A DNA stretch of 60,495 nucleotides, from positions 1-60,495 of the forward strand of contig CALVLA010000008.1 in assembly GCA_944336125.1 (NCBI GenBank), read 5' to 3'. The translations under genes were made by a program, and so were the position numbers. Below the pieces are notes generated by a model. That model made no database searches and was not told where the DNA came from. It saw only the letters and a list, made by a program, of their open reading frames with translations. Positions 23,738-34,742 of the stretch are shown here, piece by piece. The number at the start of each line of letters is the position of its first letter. Position 1 is the stretch's first letter. The stretch comes from an uncultured Clostridia bacterium. GTDB taxonomy: Bacteria; Bacillota; Clostridia; Christensenellales; CAG-314.

Positions 23738-24571
23738 TTAAAAGGGCGGCGAAATTTTTATGAGTTTTGTGTTTAAGTAACTCAAAAAACTTTGCTCAGG
23801 AAGTTTAAACGTATACTGTACTGCGCAAAGCGCCTGATTTTTAAAAGGAAACTGCCTGTTGATTTCGTTTGACGAGTACTTTCCGTCCCCGAGTATCGGG
23901 TGCCCTATAAAAGCCAGGTGCGCCCTTATCTGATGAGTTCTTCCGGTGTGGAGCCTGACGGTAAGCCTTGTATAGTTTTTGTAAGTTTCCTTGACGGTAA
24001 ACTCTGTTTTAATAGGCACCGCCCCCTGTCTTTTTTGAGGATATATGTAAACCAACGATTTTTTAGCGTCTTTAAAAAGCCATGCCTCGAGCAGCGCGTG
24101 TTTTTGTTTTACGACGCCGTATACAAGCGTTTCGTAAAGCTTGTCCACCTGTCTGTTTTTGAAAGCGGAAAGAAGCTCCTCTTCCGCCTCATCGTTTTTG
24201 GCAAAACACACTATGCCCGACGTGTTTCTGTCAAGTCTGTTTACCGCCCTTATTTTTTGTCCTTCCTTTCCGAATTGTCTGTTAACCCTGCTTTCGAAGG
24301 ATTTTTCGCCAAGTACTTCAATGCCTTCGGGTTTTACGGCAAACAAAACGTTGTCGTCCTGAAAAACCACCTGAGTTTTAACTTCGTCGTCGGCGTAAAC
24401 CAAAACCGTTTCGCCGCCGCACAAAAAGGCGTCCTCTTTTTTTCGGACACCGTCCACTTTAACTTCGCCTTTTGAAATGAGTTTTTTGACCTTAAAAGGA
24501 CCGAAATCGGTATTTTTCAAAATAAATTCCGAAAGCAAAATTTTACCGCCGCAGTTTTTCAGTTCTTTCAT
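23738..24571 (-). CDS. RluA-family pseudouridine synthase
   Basis: 277-aa enzyme that isomerises uridine to pseudouridine in rRNA or tRNA. It has an N-terminal S4-like RNA-binding segment (FKVKKLISKGEVKVDG), the catalytic Asp in AVNRLDRNTSGIV, and LHTGRTHQIRAHLAFIGHPILGD. The RNA target cannot be predicted. Its start lies 29 nt inside the 3' end of feoB, with GGGGTG upstream, so it is the last gene of the feo operon though functionally unrelated. Confidence 0.92.
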   Translation of the reverse strand: MKELKNCGGKILLSEFILKNTDFGPFKVKKLISKGEVKVDGVRKKEDAFLCGGETVLVYADDEVKTQVVFQDDNVLFAVKPEGIEVLGEKSFESRVNRQFGKEGQKIRAVNRLDRNTSGIVCFAKNDEAEEELLSAFKNRQVDKLYETLVYGVVKQKHALLEAWLFKDAKKSLVYIYPQKRQGAVPIKTEFTVKETYKNYTRLTVRLHTGRTHQIRAHLAFIGHPILGDGKYSSNEINRQFPFKNQALCAVQYTFKLPEQSFLSYLNTKLIKISPPF

Positions 24572-26432
24572 TGACGCACCCCGCGCATTTGAAACATTTG
24601 CCTTTGTATTTTACCACAAATACGGGAATTAAGGCAACAAACAGACAAAATGCCGAAGCAGCAAAACCCAATACCGCCGAAACTGAAAACAGTTTGTAAA
24701 ATGTACAAAACAAAAAGCACACCGCATATGCCGCAAAAGTATTTATAAATACCGACAGCAATGCCGTTTTAGTTCCGCACTGCTTTTTTATCATGGCAAT
24801 CGTAGCGAAACAAGGCGTATAAAGGGAAACGAAAATCAGCGCCGACATTGCGGGCAAAAAAGACAGCGACGCTCCTCCCGCAAAAAGCAACGCCATAGTT
24901 CCCGCAACCACTTCCTTTGCGGTAAGTCCCAAAACAAGCGAAACGCAAATACGCCAATCGTTAATACCTATAGGCTTGAACAAAAAAGCCACGCTTTGCC
25001 CTATGGAATACAGCAGCGAGTTTTCCTGCTCACAAAAGTTGAGCGAAAAGTCGAAACTTTTTAAAAACCACACCAACGCCACGCAGAAAAACAGCATTCC
25101 CGCAAGGCGAAACATAAAGGAAAGAATGTTTTTCCAGATGTTTTTTGCTATACGTCTGAAAGATGGCAAGCGCATAGGCGGCAATTCCATGACAAATTTT
25201 TCCCTATGTTCGCAGCCCTCAAAGTTTTTCAAAATCAATGCCACGGCAAAAGCCGCCAAAAAGCACACCGCATACATCAAAAAAGCAAAAAACAGCTCGT
25301 TTCCGTCAAATGCCTGCCCCGCAAGCGACATTATCGTAAAATAAACCGGCATTTTTGCCCCGCACGGAAAAAACGGCGAAACAAGCAAAGTGTGCCTTTG
25401 AATACTTTTGTTTTCAAGGTTGCCCGAAACAGCCACGGCGGTGGTGTTGCACCCGAGGCTCAGTATGAGGGTAAAAACGCTTTTTCCGCCAAGCCCCGCT
25501 TTTTGCATAAGTCCGTCAAGCATAAATGCTATTCGCGAAATATACCCCGTGTCTTCAAGCATATTCAAAAACAACAAAAGCAGCGCAACCTGAGGGGTAA
25601 ACTTCGCGACGACGGCAACCCCCTCGAGAAGCACGTCTGACACGAAAGAGTTGAGCCAAAGCGGAGCGTCAACCTCCGAAAGCGACTGTCCGACGTAATT
25701 TTTGACATTGGCAAACACTCCGTCCAAAAACGACACCGCCCTTCCGCCGATACCGCCTTTGGCAAATACAAGCCAAAATACCGAAGCCAAAATTACGAAA
25801 AACAGCAAAAGCGAAAAAAATCTGCCGAAAAACAGTTTTTCGATTTTCGATACGCCCTCGTTGAAAATCAAAGAGTTTTTTACGACGCCGTCGATTTTTT
25901 CATATATCTTTTCCGCATCCTTTTTTACCGACACGGCAAGCAATTTTTGGGGCAAGTGTTTTTCAAGCAGATTTTTTAAAAATCTTTCGCACTGCCCTTT
26001 GTTTCTCGCGTCAACGACAAACACAGGTATTCCCAGTTCTTTCTCTATTTTTTCAGGATAAAAACTGCCGCCGCGTTTTTTCACTTCGTCTGCCATATTG
26101 ACGACAAGAAACGGTCTGAATCCCATTTCCAAAAGCTGCATTGTCAAAAAAAGGTTTCGGGACAGATTTTTGCATTCCACCACGTTGACAATGTAAGCGT
26201 CGGGATTGTTTTCCAAAAACTCTTTGGATTTTTCTTCTTCCAGCGAAAAACAGTCAAGTGAATAAATTCCCGGTAAATCGGTGAGGCTTACGTCATAGTT
26301 TTTAAGGTACGTCGACTTTTCACCCACCGTAACCCCCGCCCAGTTTCCCGTTCTTTCGTCAAGTCCGCTGAGTGAATTAAAAAAAGTCGTTTTTCCTACG
26401 TTTGAATTTCCGACAAGCACGACTTTTTTCAT
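24543..26432 (-). CDS. feoB: Ferrous iron transporter FeoB
   Basis: Main Fe2+ importer. The 629-aa protein has an N-terminal G domain with GNSNVGKTT, the G2 region NWAGVTV and G3 DLPGIYSL, then a helical spacer and a membrane domain from about residue 205 with the conserved gate segments SLGCNTTAV and FPCGAKMP. The C terminus has a small Cys pair (CFKCAGC). The G4 motif reads VNMADE where NxxD is typical, so it fits. feoA precedes it with a 4-nt overlap. Regulation by Fur or IdeR-type proteins is usual; no iron box was identified. Confidence 0.96.
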   Translation of the reverse strand: MKKVVLVGNSNVGKTTFFNSLSGLDERTGNWAGVTVGEKSTYLKNYDVSLTDLPGIYSLDCFSLEEEKSKEFLENNPDAYIVNVVECKNLSRNLFLTMQLLEMGFRPFLVVNMADEVKKRGGSFYPEKIEKELGIPVFVVDARNKGQCERFLKNLLEKHLPQKLLAVSVKKDAEKIYEKIDGVVKNSLIFNEGVSKIEKLFFGRFFSLLLFFVILASVFWLVFAKGGIGGRAVSFLDGVFANVKNYVGQSLSEVDAPLWLNSFVSDVLLEGVAVVAKFTPQVALLLLFLNMLEDTGYISRIAFMLDGLMQKAGLGGKSVFTLILSLGCNTTAVAVSGNLENKSIQRHTLLVSPFFPCGAKMPVYFTIMSLAGQAFDGNELFFAFLMYAVCFLAAFAVALILKNFEGCEHREKFVMELPPMRLPSFRRIAKNIWKNILSFMFRLAGMLFFCVALVWFLKSFDFSLNFCEQENSLLYSIGQSVAFLFKPIGINDWRICVSLVLGLTAKEVVAGTMALLFAGGASLSFLPAMSALIFVSLYTPCFATIAMIKKQCGTKTALLSVFINTFAAYAVCFLFCTFYKLFSVSAVLGFAASAFCLFVALIPVFVVKYKGKCFKCAGCVNERTEKLRR

Positions 26433-26674
26433 TTTACCCTCCGTACAAAAATATTTTCGGCGTCAGTCATACGCAGGCAAAATACGCTGTTTCGTATTTT
26501 CACCGCAACAGAGCTTTTTAGCACGTCGAAGCCCATAAGTATAATTTTACTGTTTTTGACAAAACCCAAATCAAAAAGCCTTTTTTGCGAATCGGTTTTA
26601 GGCGAAAAACTCGCTATCGAGTAAAGGCAAAAAAGTTCGGCTTTTGAAAGAGGTAAGATTTCCGCCTTGTCCAT
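26429..26674 (-). CDS. feoA: FeoA-domain protein
   Basis: 81-aa SH3-like protein that assists FeoB at the membrane. Recognisable elements are KRLFDLGFVKNSKI (corresponding to R+L.dlGl.pG..i), the central hydrophobic strand, and LRMTDAENIFVRR at the end. Its stop overlaps the feoB start by 4 nt (ATGA). It is the first gene of the feo operon and is divergent from glnN, from which it is separated by about 120 nt of A-T rich sequence. Confidence 0.9.
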   Translation of the reverse strand: MDKAEILPLSKAELFCLYSIASFSPKTDSQKRLFDLGFVKNSKIILMGFDVLKSSVAVKIRNSVFCLRMTDAENIFVRRVK

Positions 26675-31605: not shown

Positions 31606-31911
31606 TTAGCCTTCGTCGCTGACCACGTAATCGCCCTGAGCTTCCTGACCGTTTACCGCCGCAAAAGACTGTCCGCAACGTGAATCGAAAAGCCTGACAA
31701 GAATAACGTCATCGCCTATTTTCACCACGTTGCGCCAAGGAATAAAAATGTCCTCCCTGTTTTTGAAAAACCTTCTGTCACTGGGAACGACAAGCCCTGT
31801 CACTTTGCAAGTGGCGCATGAGATCACCATATCGCAAATTCTCCCAAGTCTTTTTCCGTTTATGGTATTGACAACTTCCTTGCTTCTCAGTTCGTTGTAT
31901 GTTATGTCCAT
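31606..31911 (-). CDS. YlmC/YmxH-family PRC-barrel sporulation protein
   Basis: 101-aa PRC-barrel protein beginning MDITYNELRSKEVVNTINGKRLG, with VTGLVVPSD and DIFIPWRNVVKIGDDVILV, as in the YlmC/YmxH family. It lies 12 nt after sigG, the usual place of ylmC in Firmicutes. Its molecular role is not established. The last ~20 residues (DSRCGQSFAAVNGQEAQ) form an unusual extension. Confidence 0.88.
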   Translation of the reverse strand: MDITYNELRSKEVVNTINGKRLGRICDMVISCATCKVTGLVVPSDRRFFKNREDIFIPWRNVVKIGDDVILVRLFDSRCGQSFAAVNGQEAQGDYVVSDEG

Positions 31912-31923
31912 AAGCCCTCACCG

Positions 31924-32724
31924 CTAATTTATATGCGGTGCGGTTTCGTTTAATGACATCATCTGACGAATTCTGTCGAAAGCGCTTTTTTCAAGCCTTG
32001 ACACCTGTGCCTGTGATACTCCCACTTCAGCAGAAATTTCTGTTTGTGTTTTTCCCTCGAAGTATCTTTTTCTTAAAATTTGTTTTTCCCTGTCGTTAAG
32101 TTTTTCAAGTGCCTGACTTAACGATACGCTTTCGAGCCACCTCTCGTCGTTGTTTTTTTTGTCGCCTATCTGATCCATTACCAAAAGTGACTCGCTGTCA
32201 TCGTTAAAAACAGGTTCAAACAACGACACCGGTTCGCTTATCGCATCCAACGCATCCTTTACGTCGGCGTAAGGCAAATTTATTTCGTTGGCAATTTCCT
32301 GCAAACTCACTTGTCTTTCGGCGCCTTCTTCCAGTTTTTCCCTCGCTTTAAGGGCAAGGTAAGCCGTGTCTCTTGTACTTCTGCTGACATGTAAACTGTT
32401 TCCTTCCCTTAAAAGACGCCTTATCTCGCCTATTATCATAGGCACGGCATAAGTCGAAAACCTGAGATTGTACGACATATCAAAGTTATCCACCGCCTTG
32501 ACAAGGCCTACACACCCCGCCTGAAAAATGTCATCCATTGTTTTTACTCTTGCCGAATAACGCTGAACAACCGAAAGAACAAGCCGCATATTGCACATAA
32601 TGTACCTTCTGCGTGCAATTTTGTCCCCTTGTTTGACTTTTTTCATCAGTTCGTCGGATTCCTTTTTTGTTAGTTTCGGAAGCGTCGAAGTATCTATTCC
32701 GCAAATGGTAACCTTTTTTTTCAT
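31924..32724 (-). CDS. sigG: Sporulation sigma factor SigG
   Basis: Late forespore-specific RNA polymerase sigma factor. The 266-aa protein has the hallmark N terminus KVTICGIDTSTLPKL found in SigG, region 2 (NMRLVLSVVQRYS, FSTYAVPMIIGEIRR), EPVSLFEPVFNDD in region 3, and the region 4 helix-turn-helix KTQTEISAEVGVSQAQVSRLE. The start is the ATG after AGAGGTGGG; 26 upstream in-frame codons lack similarity. It is followed by the ymxH-like gene. spoIIGA and sigE, which precede sigG in most relatives, are not in this window. Confidence 0.95.
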   Translation of the reverse strand: MKKKVTICGIDTSTLPKLTKKESDELMKKVKQGDKIARRRYIMCNMRLVLSVVQRYSARVKTMDDIFQAGCVGLVKAVDNFDMSYNLRFSTYAVPMIIGEIRRLLREGNSLHVSRSTRDTAYLALKAREKLEEGAERQVSLQEIANEINLPYADVKDALDAISEPVSLFEPVFNDDSESLLVMDQIGDKKNNDERWLESVSLSQALEKLNDREKQILRKRYFEGKTQTEISAEVGVSQAQVSRLEKSAFDRIRQMMSLNETAPHIN

Positions 32725-32767
32725 ACCCACCTCTTTAGTTTTTATTAGTGTGTCAAATATCGGCAAA

Positions 32768-32796
32768 AAGTATACCCGACAGCAATTGACATACAA
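32768..32796 (-). promoter_or_regulatory. Candidate sigG promoter
   Basis: TTGTAT (32791-32796) and TATACT (32769-32774) are 16 nt apart, a sigma-A fit. The same -10 region reads GGGTATACTT, which also fits the forespore sigma-F/G -10 pattern GGNNANAMT, but a properly spaced -35 for those factors is not clear. Confidence 0.35.
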
Positions 32797-32814
32797 ATAC
32801 AATTGACATAAAAT
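32786..32814 (+). promoter_or_regulatory. Sigma-A promoter of the IlvD-like gene
   Basis: TTGACA and TAAAAT with a 17-nt spacer. CAATTGACATA occurs twice (32783-32793 and 32800-32810), 17 nt apart. Confidence 0.65.
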
Positions 32815-32831
32815 AAACTAAAGAGGCAGAA

Positions 32832-34478
32832 ATGTTAAATTTTTCCACATCGATTGAACAATTTACCGAGCAGCTTTCGCTTGAAGCGTTGGGGCTTAAT
32901 TTAAATAAAAAAACCGTTGCGATTGTTTCGGCTTACAACGAATTGTCTGTTTCCAACTCGGGACTTGACAAAATTTGCGAGCAAGTGAAAAAAGGTATTC
33001 TGTCAAAAGACTTCAATGCCATTACTTTCAATTTGCCAAATCTTTGCAGCGACCTCACCATGGGTTCCGAGGCGAACAAATACGTTTTGCCGCTAAGAGA
33101 CAACATAGCCGATTCGGTAGAAATGCTGGCGTCATTCCAGGCAATCGACGGCTTTGTTTTTGTGGCAAATGACGCCGCGACCGTTGCGGGAATGCTTATA
33201 GGATGTATGAGAGTAAACGTTCCTTCCCTGTTCATTGGCGGCGGAACAATGAAAACGGCACTCATAGGCGACAAAAAAATGGGATTTTATTCTGCCTATG
33301 AAACGCGCGGTCTTTTGAAAAGCGGAAAAATAAATTTGACCGACCTCGAAAAAATTCAGCACGACCTTATTCAGGGAAACGGAAACGCAAGCGACAACTA
33401 CCCAAGCAACAGTTCGCTTGTCATAGCCGAAGCAATGGGTCTCGCGCTGCCTAGAGTATCCACTTTGCCAGCCGACGACAAATCACGTTTTGAACTTGCG
33501 GAAAAAACAGGCGAAACAATTTGCACAATGATAAAAAACCTGATGACCCCTCGCTCAATCGCCTCAGCCGAAAGTATTAAAACGGCGGCTTGCGTGGATA
33601 TAGCCCTGGGTTCGTCATCCACAAGCGTAATCAACCTTATCGCCATATCCCACGAAACGGGAAACGACATCGACTTTTCATACTTTGACGAACTTTCAAA
33701 ATCTGTTCCGCGAATCGTCAACATATCTACAAGGCAGCAGTGCTTCATGGAAGATTTTGACAGCGCAGGCGGCGTTTATGCGGTAATAAAACAGCTTATC
33801 ACATGCGGAAAAGTTGACGGAATTTACAAAATATTTGACGGCACGCTTATGCGCGACAACATTGACAACATGGAGTTTGAACAAAGCGACGTCATAAAAA
33901 ACATGTCTAAGCAAAAGAAAAACTCCTTCACCGTAATGTACGGAAACATCGCGGAAGAAGGAGCGATAGGCTTTTTCAACGAAGTCGAAAGTTTTTCGGG
34001 ACCTGCCAGAGTTTTCGAAAACGAGGAAACCGCTTTGGACGCCATATCGGCAAAAGTAGTCAAAGCGGGCGACGTTGTTGTCATAAGAAACGAAGGACCT
34101 GTCAGCGGTCCGGGAATGCGGATAGTTTACCTCCCCCTTTCCATGCTTGTAGGTCTTGACCTTGACAAAAAGGTTGCGGTAATTACAGACGGACGTATTC
34201 CTGATATTTCGCGAGGCATTGCAATCGGCTGCGTAAACAAGGAAACAGCCGATAAAGACGGCGTCCTTGACGTAATCAAAAACGGCGACATCATAGAAAT
34301 AAACATGACAAAGCGCAGAGTCAACGTCAAGCTTAACGCAAGAGACATAGCAGTACGCAAAAAATACGTCGAGCCAAATATTCCCGAAGTGGGCGCGTTT
34401 TTGAAAAAGTATTCAAAAACAGTCTCCCCTTCAAATCAAGGCTGCATCACGGGGGTTGACAAAAAACAATCCGAATAA
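32832..34478 (+). CDS. IlvD/Edd-family protein lacking the iron-sulphur and catalytic residues
   Basis: 548-aa member of the dihydroxy-acid dehydratase/6-phosphogluconate dehydratase family by overall layout: SDLTMGSEANKYVLPLRDNI (73-92), NVPSLFIGGGTM, EAMGLALPRVSTLPAD, RNEGPVSGPGMR, VAVITDGRIPDISRG and DIIEINMTKRRVNVK. However the usual NCDKTTPG motif reads NDAATVAG (113-120), so the cluster Cys, the Mg-binding Asp and the active-site Lys are all replaced. The G.CGGM..N segment reads GNGNASDNYPSN (182-193), without its Cys. The first cluster motif is also missing. It is therefore unlikely to be a working dehydratase. It is complete, has a good promoter and a terminator, and is divergent from sigG. 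Confidence 0.8.
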   Translation: MLNFSTSIEQFTEQLSLEALGLNLNKKTVAIVSAYNELSVSNSGLDKICEQVKKGILSKDFNAITFNLPNLCSDLTMGSEANKYVLPLRDNIADSVEMLASFQAIDGFVFVANDAATVAGMLIGCMRVNVPSLFIGGGTMKTALIGDKKMGFYSAYETRGLLKSGKINLTDLEKIQHDLIQGNGNASDNYPSNSSLVIAEAMGLALPRVSTLPADDKSRFELAEKTGETICTMIKNLMTPRSIASAESIKTAACVDIALGSSSTSVINLIAISHETGNDIDFSYFDELSKSVPRIVNISTRQQCFMEDFDSAGGVYAVIKQLITCGKVDGIYKIFDGTLMRDNIDNMEFEQSDVIKNMSKQKKNSFTVMYGNIAEEGAIGFFNEVESFSGPARVFENEETALDAISAKVVKAGDVVVIRNEGPVSGPGMRIVYLPLSMLVGLDLDKKVAVITDGRIPDISRGIAIGCVNKETADKDGVLDVIKNGDIIEINMTKRRVNVKLNARDIAVRKKYVEPNIPEVGAFLKKYSKTVSPSNQGCITGVDKKQSE

Positions 34479-34481
34479 AAA

Positions 34482-34511
34482 AAGAGCGTCGTAACGACGC
34501 TCTTAATTTTT
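34482..34511. terminator. Bidirectional terminator between the IlvD-like gene and acpP
   Basis: AAGAGCGTCG and CGACGCTCTT form a perfect 10-bp stem with a 3-nt loop, flanked by A and T runs on both sides. Confidence 0.88.
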
Positions 34512-34742
34512 TTACTTTTGGCTTTTTTCGATATAGTCGACAACGTCTTTGATTGTCTTCATTTCCATGGCAACTTCGTCAGGAATAGTCAAATTGAATT
34601 CCGTTTCCAAAGCCATAATCATTTCGACAACGTCAAGAGAATCGGCTCCCAAATCGTTGATGATGTCGGATTCCATTTTAATTTCGTCTTCCGAAACGTT
34701 GATTTGAGCCGCAAGCATTTTTTTGATTTTTTCAAATACCAT
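34512..34742 (-). CDS. acpP: Acyl carrier protein
   Basis: 76-aa carrier of acyl chains in fatty acid synthesis. The phosphopantetheine serine is in LGADSLDVVEMIMALE, followed by FNLTIPDE. It stands alone between a RidA gene and a terminator, without fab genes in this window. ATG follows GGGGG at about 9 nt. It could also serve the serine-palmitoyltransferase-like enzyme at 11 kb, which in some bacteria uses acyl-ACP; that link is speculative. Confidence 0.95.
   Translation of the reverse strand: MVFEKIKKMLAAQINVSEDEIKMESDIINDLGADSLDVVEMIMALETEFNLTIPDEVAMEMKTIKDVVDYIEKSQK

Follow-up and report, generated by a model that had tools for sequence, protein, structure and literature searches.

The window analysed here is a stretch of 60,495 nucleotides from the genome of an uncultured Clostridia bacterium (G000). 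It contains an open reading frame of 548 aa, with an ATG start and zero internal stops, encoding a protein of the IlvD/Edd fold that is referred to below as IlvD'. This frame is divergent from a sigG-like gene, beside which lies a gene for a PRC-barrel protein, and it is followed by a terminator shared with a convergent acpP-like ORF. The features of the locus are listed in Table 1.

Table 1. Features of the IlvD' locus (window coordinates; residue numbers are those of the window protein).
Feature	Position	Strand	Basis
PRC-barrel, YlmC/YmxH-like sporulation protein beside sigG	31606..31911	-	PRC match; YlmC/YmxH from family member
sporulation sigma factor, sigG-like, encoded divergently from IlvD'; the actual start is probably closer to 32724	31924..32802	-	
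sigmaA-type promoter by consensus, TTGACA-N17-TAAAAT (11/12), with a counterpart in the same position at each of the 26 orthologous loci examined	32786..32814	+	
Cofactor-less IlvD/Edd-fold protein (IlvD')	32832..34478	+	ORF, Pfam, alignment, fold prediction
NDAATVAG, residues 113-120, replacing the NCDK cluster/Mg motif; Cys114, Asp115 and Lys116 lost	33168..33191	+	alignment
Residues 182-194, GNGNASDNYPSNS replacing SCGSCAGMFTANS; Cys183/186 and Thr191 lost	33375..33413	+	alignment
Residues 452-462, TDGRIPDISRG replacing TDGRFSGATRG; Ser457 lost, Arg455 kept	34185..34217	+	alignment
Intrinsic terminator with a 10-bp stem that can act on both strands and also serves the convergent acpP-like ORF 34512-34742	34482..34504		

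The consensus promoter and the strong terminator after the stop codon, both named in the original prediction, were recovered. In the window, the promoter ends 17 nt before the ATG, and a TTGACA-N17-TANAAT-like sequence ends 13-32 nt before the ATG in 26/26 loci examined, scoring 11/12 in 25 loci and 10/12 in one (2.8% of shuffled upstream sequences reached 10). Judged by its consensus, the promoter of IlvD' would be of the vegetative sigmaA type. On the sigG side of the intergenic region (window 32725-32831), and of the orthologous regions of many relatives, there is a recurring GTATA...GCTCAAAATAAC-like element that, by eye, resembles a sigF/sigG-type promoter. Elsewhere in the window, a FeoB-like ORF is encoded on the minus strand (24543-26674), with a FeoA-domain ORF (PF04023) just upstream.

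The window protein gives full-length matches to PF00920 (234.1 bits) and PF24877 (143.2 bits), exceeding the cut-offs of 27 and 27.7, respectively. Its scores for the ilvD equivalog TIGR00110 (389.7 bits, cut-off 618.15) and for NF002068 (418.9, cut-off 644) are under the curated thresholds. Sequence matches in the PDB are exclusively IlvD/Edd proteins, the top match being a plant dihydroxy-acid dehydratase (DHAD). AlphaFold2 models were obtained for the window protein (pLDDT 85.9, pTM 0.89) and for a member of the core clade described below (L160; pLDDT 87.0, pTM 0.89). The top Foldseek matches of the window model are DHADs, with a TM-score of 0.90 to the holo structure 5ze4, and VIA-align superimposes the model on DHAD structures with Z-scores of 44-46 (46.4 for Mycobacterium tuberculosis IlvD, 6ovt, over 531 residues at 2.1 A). 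The two-domain fold is thus predicted to be intact, as had been claimed for the whole 548 aa, a fold match that carries no functional evidence. Matches to LacI/periplasmic-binding-protein-like structures (Z about 10-11) cover only about 130 residues and were taken to reflect a common alpha/beta arrangement. By fold and sequence, the window protein is a member of the IlvD/Edd superfamily; judged by its residues, its score and its pathway context, it is not a DHAD.

Published work describes the Mg ligands of the IlvD/Edd family as fully or highly conserved and its catalytic Ser as fully conserved, and regards Mg binding as universal in it (PMC5770437, PMC9314677). For alignment of the window protein, canonical IlvDs from within its order were used, and the roles of residues were transferred by alignment from these two studies. 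C114, D115 and K116 are present in all 16 canonical proteins tabulated. In the window protein, the substitutions C114D and C186A remove cluster cysteines, and D73S, D115A and K116A remove three of the four Mg ligands, among them, at 116, the carbamylated Lys. The active-site Thr has become Pro (T191P), as has the catalytic Ser (S457P), and further cysteines of the canonical motif are also changed (C183N and, just before the second altered segment, C180I). Glu421, the sole remaining Mg ligand, is kept, together with Asp453, Arg455 and the GPxSGPGM loop. The original prediction had reported NDAATVAG and GNGNASDN (residues 182-189) at the sites of the canonical NCDK and CPTCGSC motifs, and the loss of the iron-sulphur ligands, the Mg-binding Asp and the active-site Lys; the alignment agrees on each point. 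Its list of losses was correct as far as it went and overlooked S457P, and its statement that DISRG is kept was mistaken: this segment sits where canonical proteins have FSGxTRG or FSGxSRG and itself marks the loss of the Ser.

The same losses extend through a subfamily. All 27 orthologues lack the cluster and the Lys/Asp ligands: position 114 is E/D/N/Q, position 115 is P/A/S/N/I/T and position 116 is N/A/I/C/Y in 27/27, Ser457 is lost in most members, the window protein included, and Glu421 is retained in 26/27. Cluster cysteines elsewhere in the protein would have spoken against a cofactor-less protein, and the subfamily alignment contains no such substitutes, the sole invariant Cys being the C-terminal C538. 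Among the 22 core proteins, E114, P115, N116, T185, D186 and G191 are fixed or near-fixed, and outside the core these replacement residues vary (Ala in place of D186 in the window genus, A/I/C/Y in place of N116 and P/E/D in place of G191). The core proteins also have near-invariant cysteines near the old site, at query positions 136 and 187 (G136 and S187 in the window protein), which, on the alignment, may leave room for another metal or cluster in these proteins. Conserved-but-changed sites are over-represented in the active-site loops, with 13/30 falling in loops that make up 77/531 positions. Conservation of the loops versus the rest is 0.83 vs 0.75 in the subfamily and 0.90 vs 0.68 in the canonical proteins, two sets unmatched for divergence. 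From these sequence patterns, we take the old site to be still important, but not to form a single new catalytic apparatus common to the clade.

A search of 151 relatives yielded a 63% orthologue in the same-genus genome G002 and relatives of about 35% through the family. An IlvD domain was found in 29/41 family genomes, of which 27 have the cofactor-less kind and two (G001 and G003) a canonical ilvD; the remaining 12/41 are without any IlvD, with intact flanks in some. The original prediction had proposed a phylogeny with the substitutions mapped, and in the tree the 27 cofactor-less proteins form a single clade (100/99 support) against the canonical IlvDs of the order, with a neighbourhood of its own. 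Scans of genome contigs found no relative with the window protein alone as query, and 36 loci with the core alignment as query, of which L142-L162 fall in the core clade. When 396 genomes of the order were searched with a core profile, scores above 890 bits occurred only within the family, and below about 530 bits IlvD' and canonical proteins were not separated, so the outer limit of the clade rests on the tree. The core clade comes from uncultured Clostridia metagenome-assembled genomes, several apparently from rabbit or roe deer gut by isolate name, and includes Candidatus Limihabitans stercoravium.

IlvD' is directly divergent from sigG in 24/27 genomes. One gene lies between the two in G024 and G035, and no sigG is present in the approximately 1 kb available upstream of IlvD' on the short contig of G040. 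The sigG side of the locus carries ylmC, rluA, a DUF512 radical SAM gene, der, plsY and spoIVA. On the far side, most genera have thymidine kinase (tdk) and formate-tetrahydrofolate ligase (fhs) genes, and some also have a nucleoside deoxyribosyltransferase-like gene; in the window genus, an acpP-like ORF, a RidA-like ORF and asnS are found instead, as read from their translations. IlvD' is seen only in genomes with sigG, yet not in every sigG genome: in the sister genomes G003, G034 and G004, the flanks are present, sigG adjoins the next gene and IlvD' is absent. No IlvD' remnants were found at these empty sites by tblastn, the best hits (E 0.003-0.004) being short and outside the site. The simplest reading is therefore that the family ancestor already had IlvD' at this site and that the gene can be dispensed with. 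In G029, a 452-aa protein (L136:5895-7253) that by eye appears to combine a TIR-like with a methyltransferase-like domain is encoded where IlvD' would be expected.

A canonical ilvD had been suggested as something to look for in the same genome; none is present, and there is no second PF00920 protein in G000. Ketol-acid reductoisomerase (KARI, IlvC) is likewise absent from the window genome, as it is from all 27 genomes with the cofactor-less IlvD', and within the family it was found in G001 and G003 only. TPP_enzyme_C matches in G000 include no full-length acetolactate synthase, the three matches lying in frames of 250, 305 and 1171 aa. The window genome is 94.6% complete, so these absences are not absolute. 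G001 and G003, which belong to the window genus, lack IlvD' and carry a near-identical leuA-leuC-leuD-leuB-ilvB-ilvN-ilvC-ilvD operon (L053, L054); the listed contamination of each assembly is 5%, and these contigs could therefore be foreign, with transfer and contamination as the two possible origins of the operon. Their ilvD was considered as an orthologue of IlvD' and dropped, given its operon and its placement among the canonical proteins in the tree. Most canonical ilvDs of the order have ilvB, ilvN, ilvC and leu genes around them.

The gene shows the marks of selection. Nei-Gojobori dN/dS is about 0.30/2.7 between the window protein and its orthologue in G002, and about 0.03-0.06 for core pairs with estimable dS, both rough values because dS is saturated; third-position differences predominate in every pair compared. 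IlvD' is thus under purifying selection, with a dN/dS of about 0.1 or less, and no signs of a pseudogene were found, neither a broken frame in the 27 genomes nor relaxed selection in the pairs compared. A lone decaying copy, the outcome that would have told against the original prediction, is not what these genomes contain, and its claim of a gene maintained for a new role is supported by the clade, the selection and the conserved promoter. The gene belongs to a clade-specific IlvD/Edd subfamily and has been vertically inherited and maintained.

Comparison with known relatives places IlvD' closest to DHAD (IlvD, TIGR00110), with which it shares the full-length two-domain fold (28-32% identity), the GPGM loop, Glu421, Asp453 and Arg455. 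Unlike DHAD, the window protein lacks the cluster Cys, the Mg Asp/Lys, Thr191 and Ser457, scores well under the curated cut-off, has no accompanying pathway and is encoded at a different locus. The sugar-acid dehydratases (L-arabinonate, D-xylonate) and 6-phosphogluconate dehydratase have the same fold (Z 31-43.5) at a lower identity of 21-24%; their Mg ligands, Lys and Ser are absent in IlvD', and no signs of sugar-acid metabolism were found in its neighbourhood. IlvD' resembles pseudoenzymes in general in keeping the fold, losing the catalytic residues and being maintained as a gene. A literature search for a cluster-less, regulatory or pseudoenzyme clade of IlvD/Edd proteins found no relevant report.

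IlvD' very probably represents a maintained non-DHAD subfamily. For such a subfamily, non-catalytic ligand binding or regulation appears reasonably likely, a new cluster-free enzymatic activity possible but on balance unlikely, and a purely structural or other role improbable; a non-catalytic ligand-binding role is favoured over a new enzyme. The branched-chain amino-acid pathway would have been lost first and the ancestral DHAD then kept, becoming a non-catalytic, probably metabolite-binding protein. IlvD' would be made in growing cells from its vegetative promoter, and its old cleft may still bind a ligand, without dehydration, via Glu421, Arg455 and the GPxSGPGM loop; candidate roles are those of a hydroxy-, keto- or sugar-acid sensor, or of a partner protein. 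As a new enzyme, IlvD' would have its cluster/Mg site rebuilt in a cluster-free form, from the acidic residue at 114, D186, E421, R455 and perhaps C187, and would use another metal or acid-base catalysis for a different elimination, an isomerisation or a hydrolysis. The near-invariance of E114-P115-N116 and T185-D186-C187 in the 22 core proteins, together with the enrichment of changed sites in the active-site loops, fits a new active or metal site, as do the acidic or amide residue at 114 throughout and the near-universal Glu421. However, D186, N116 and G191 change outside the core, leaving no common new catalytic set across the clade, and the excess of loop conservation is smaller than in canonical proteins. 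Old pocket positions differ between sub-clades, and a changed or relaxed chemistry fits better than one shared new mechanism. The fuller form of this idea, a family-wide cofactor-free subfamily with the site rebuilt as a carboxylate/thiol site with a new activity, and kept after loss of the whole branched-chain pathway, is doubtful.

Two further explanations concern the retention of the gene and its place. The absence of the pathway genes, and the 12 family genomes without any IlvD, could point to a decaying DHAD relic left by pathway loss, but frames intact in 27 genomes of several genera, the low dN/dS, the promoter in every locus examined and an intact predicted fold make this hardly credible. 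A regulator dedicated to sporulation and acting either on sigG or together with it would account for the conserved divergent pair, whose members are separated by one gene in two further genomes. Such a role is quite improbable, given that IlvD' has its own promoter of apparently vegetative type, that sigG persists where IlvD' is cleanly absent, that G040 has IlvD' with no sigG in the upstream sequence available, and that the neighbourhood may be inherited synteny.

The subfamily is maintained, repurposed and cofactor-free, and is not a product of decay; apparently, a family of small-genome gut Clostridia has found a new use for an old enzyme fold. The clade breaks the family-wide conservation of the Mg ligands and catalytic Ser in 27 genomes, with the fold and purifying selection kept, and offers a naturally occurring example of the conversion of an Fe-S/Mg enzyme into something different. 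The canonical proteins, the core genera and the window genus provide a graded series for testing that change. If such proteins were labelled 'dihydroxy-acid dehydratase' automatically, these auxotroph-like genomes would be credited with a pathway step in error.

Several odd sequences outside the cofactor-less clade form long branches in the tree. Three IlvD-like proteins on long branches, encoded by members of other families in the order, likewise lack NCDK; they adjoin a class I (ileS-like) tRNA synthetase gene (L043:8675-10288, G069), ispDF (L047:1700-3322, G129) and citramalate synthase genes (L048:8309-10123, G068). Another IlvD-like protein (L045:456-2123, G111) has kept Cys114 and Asp115, but Lys116 and Cys186 are missing; its genome encodes a canonical copy as well (L046), and it is a possible intermediate.
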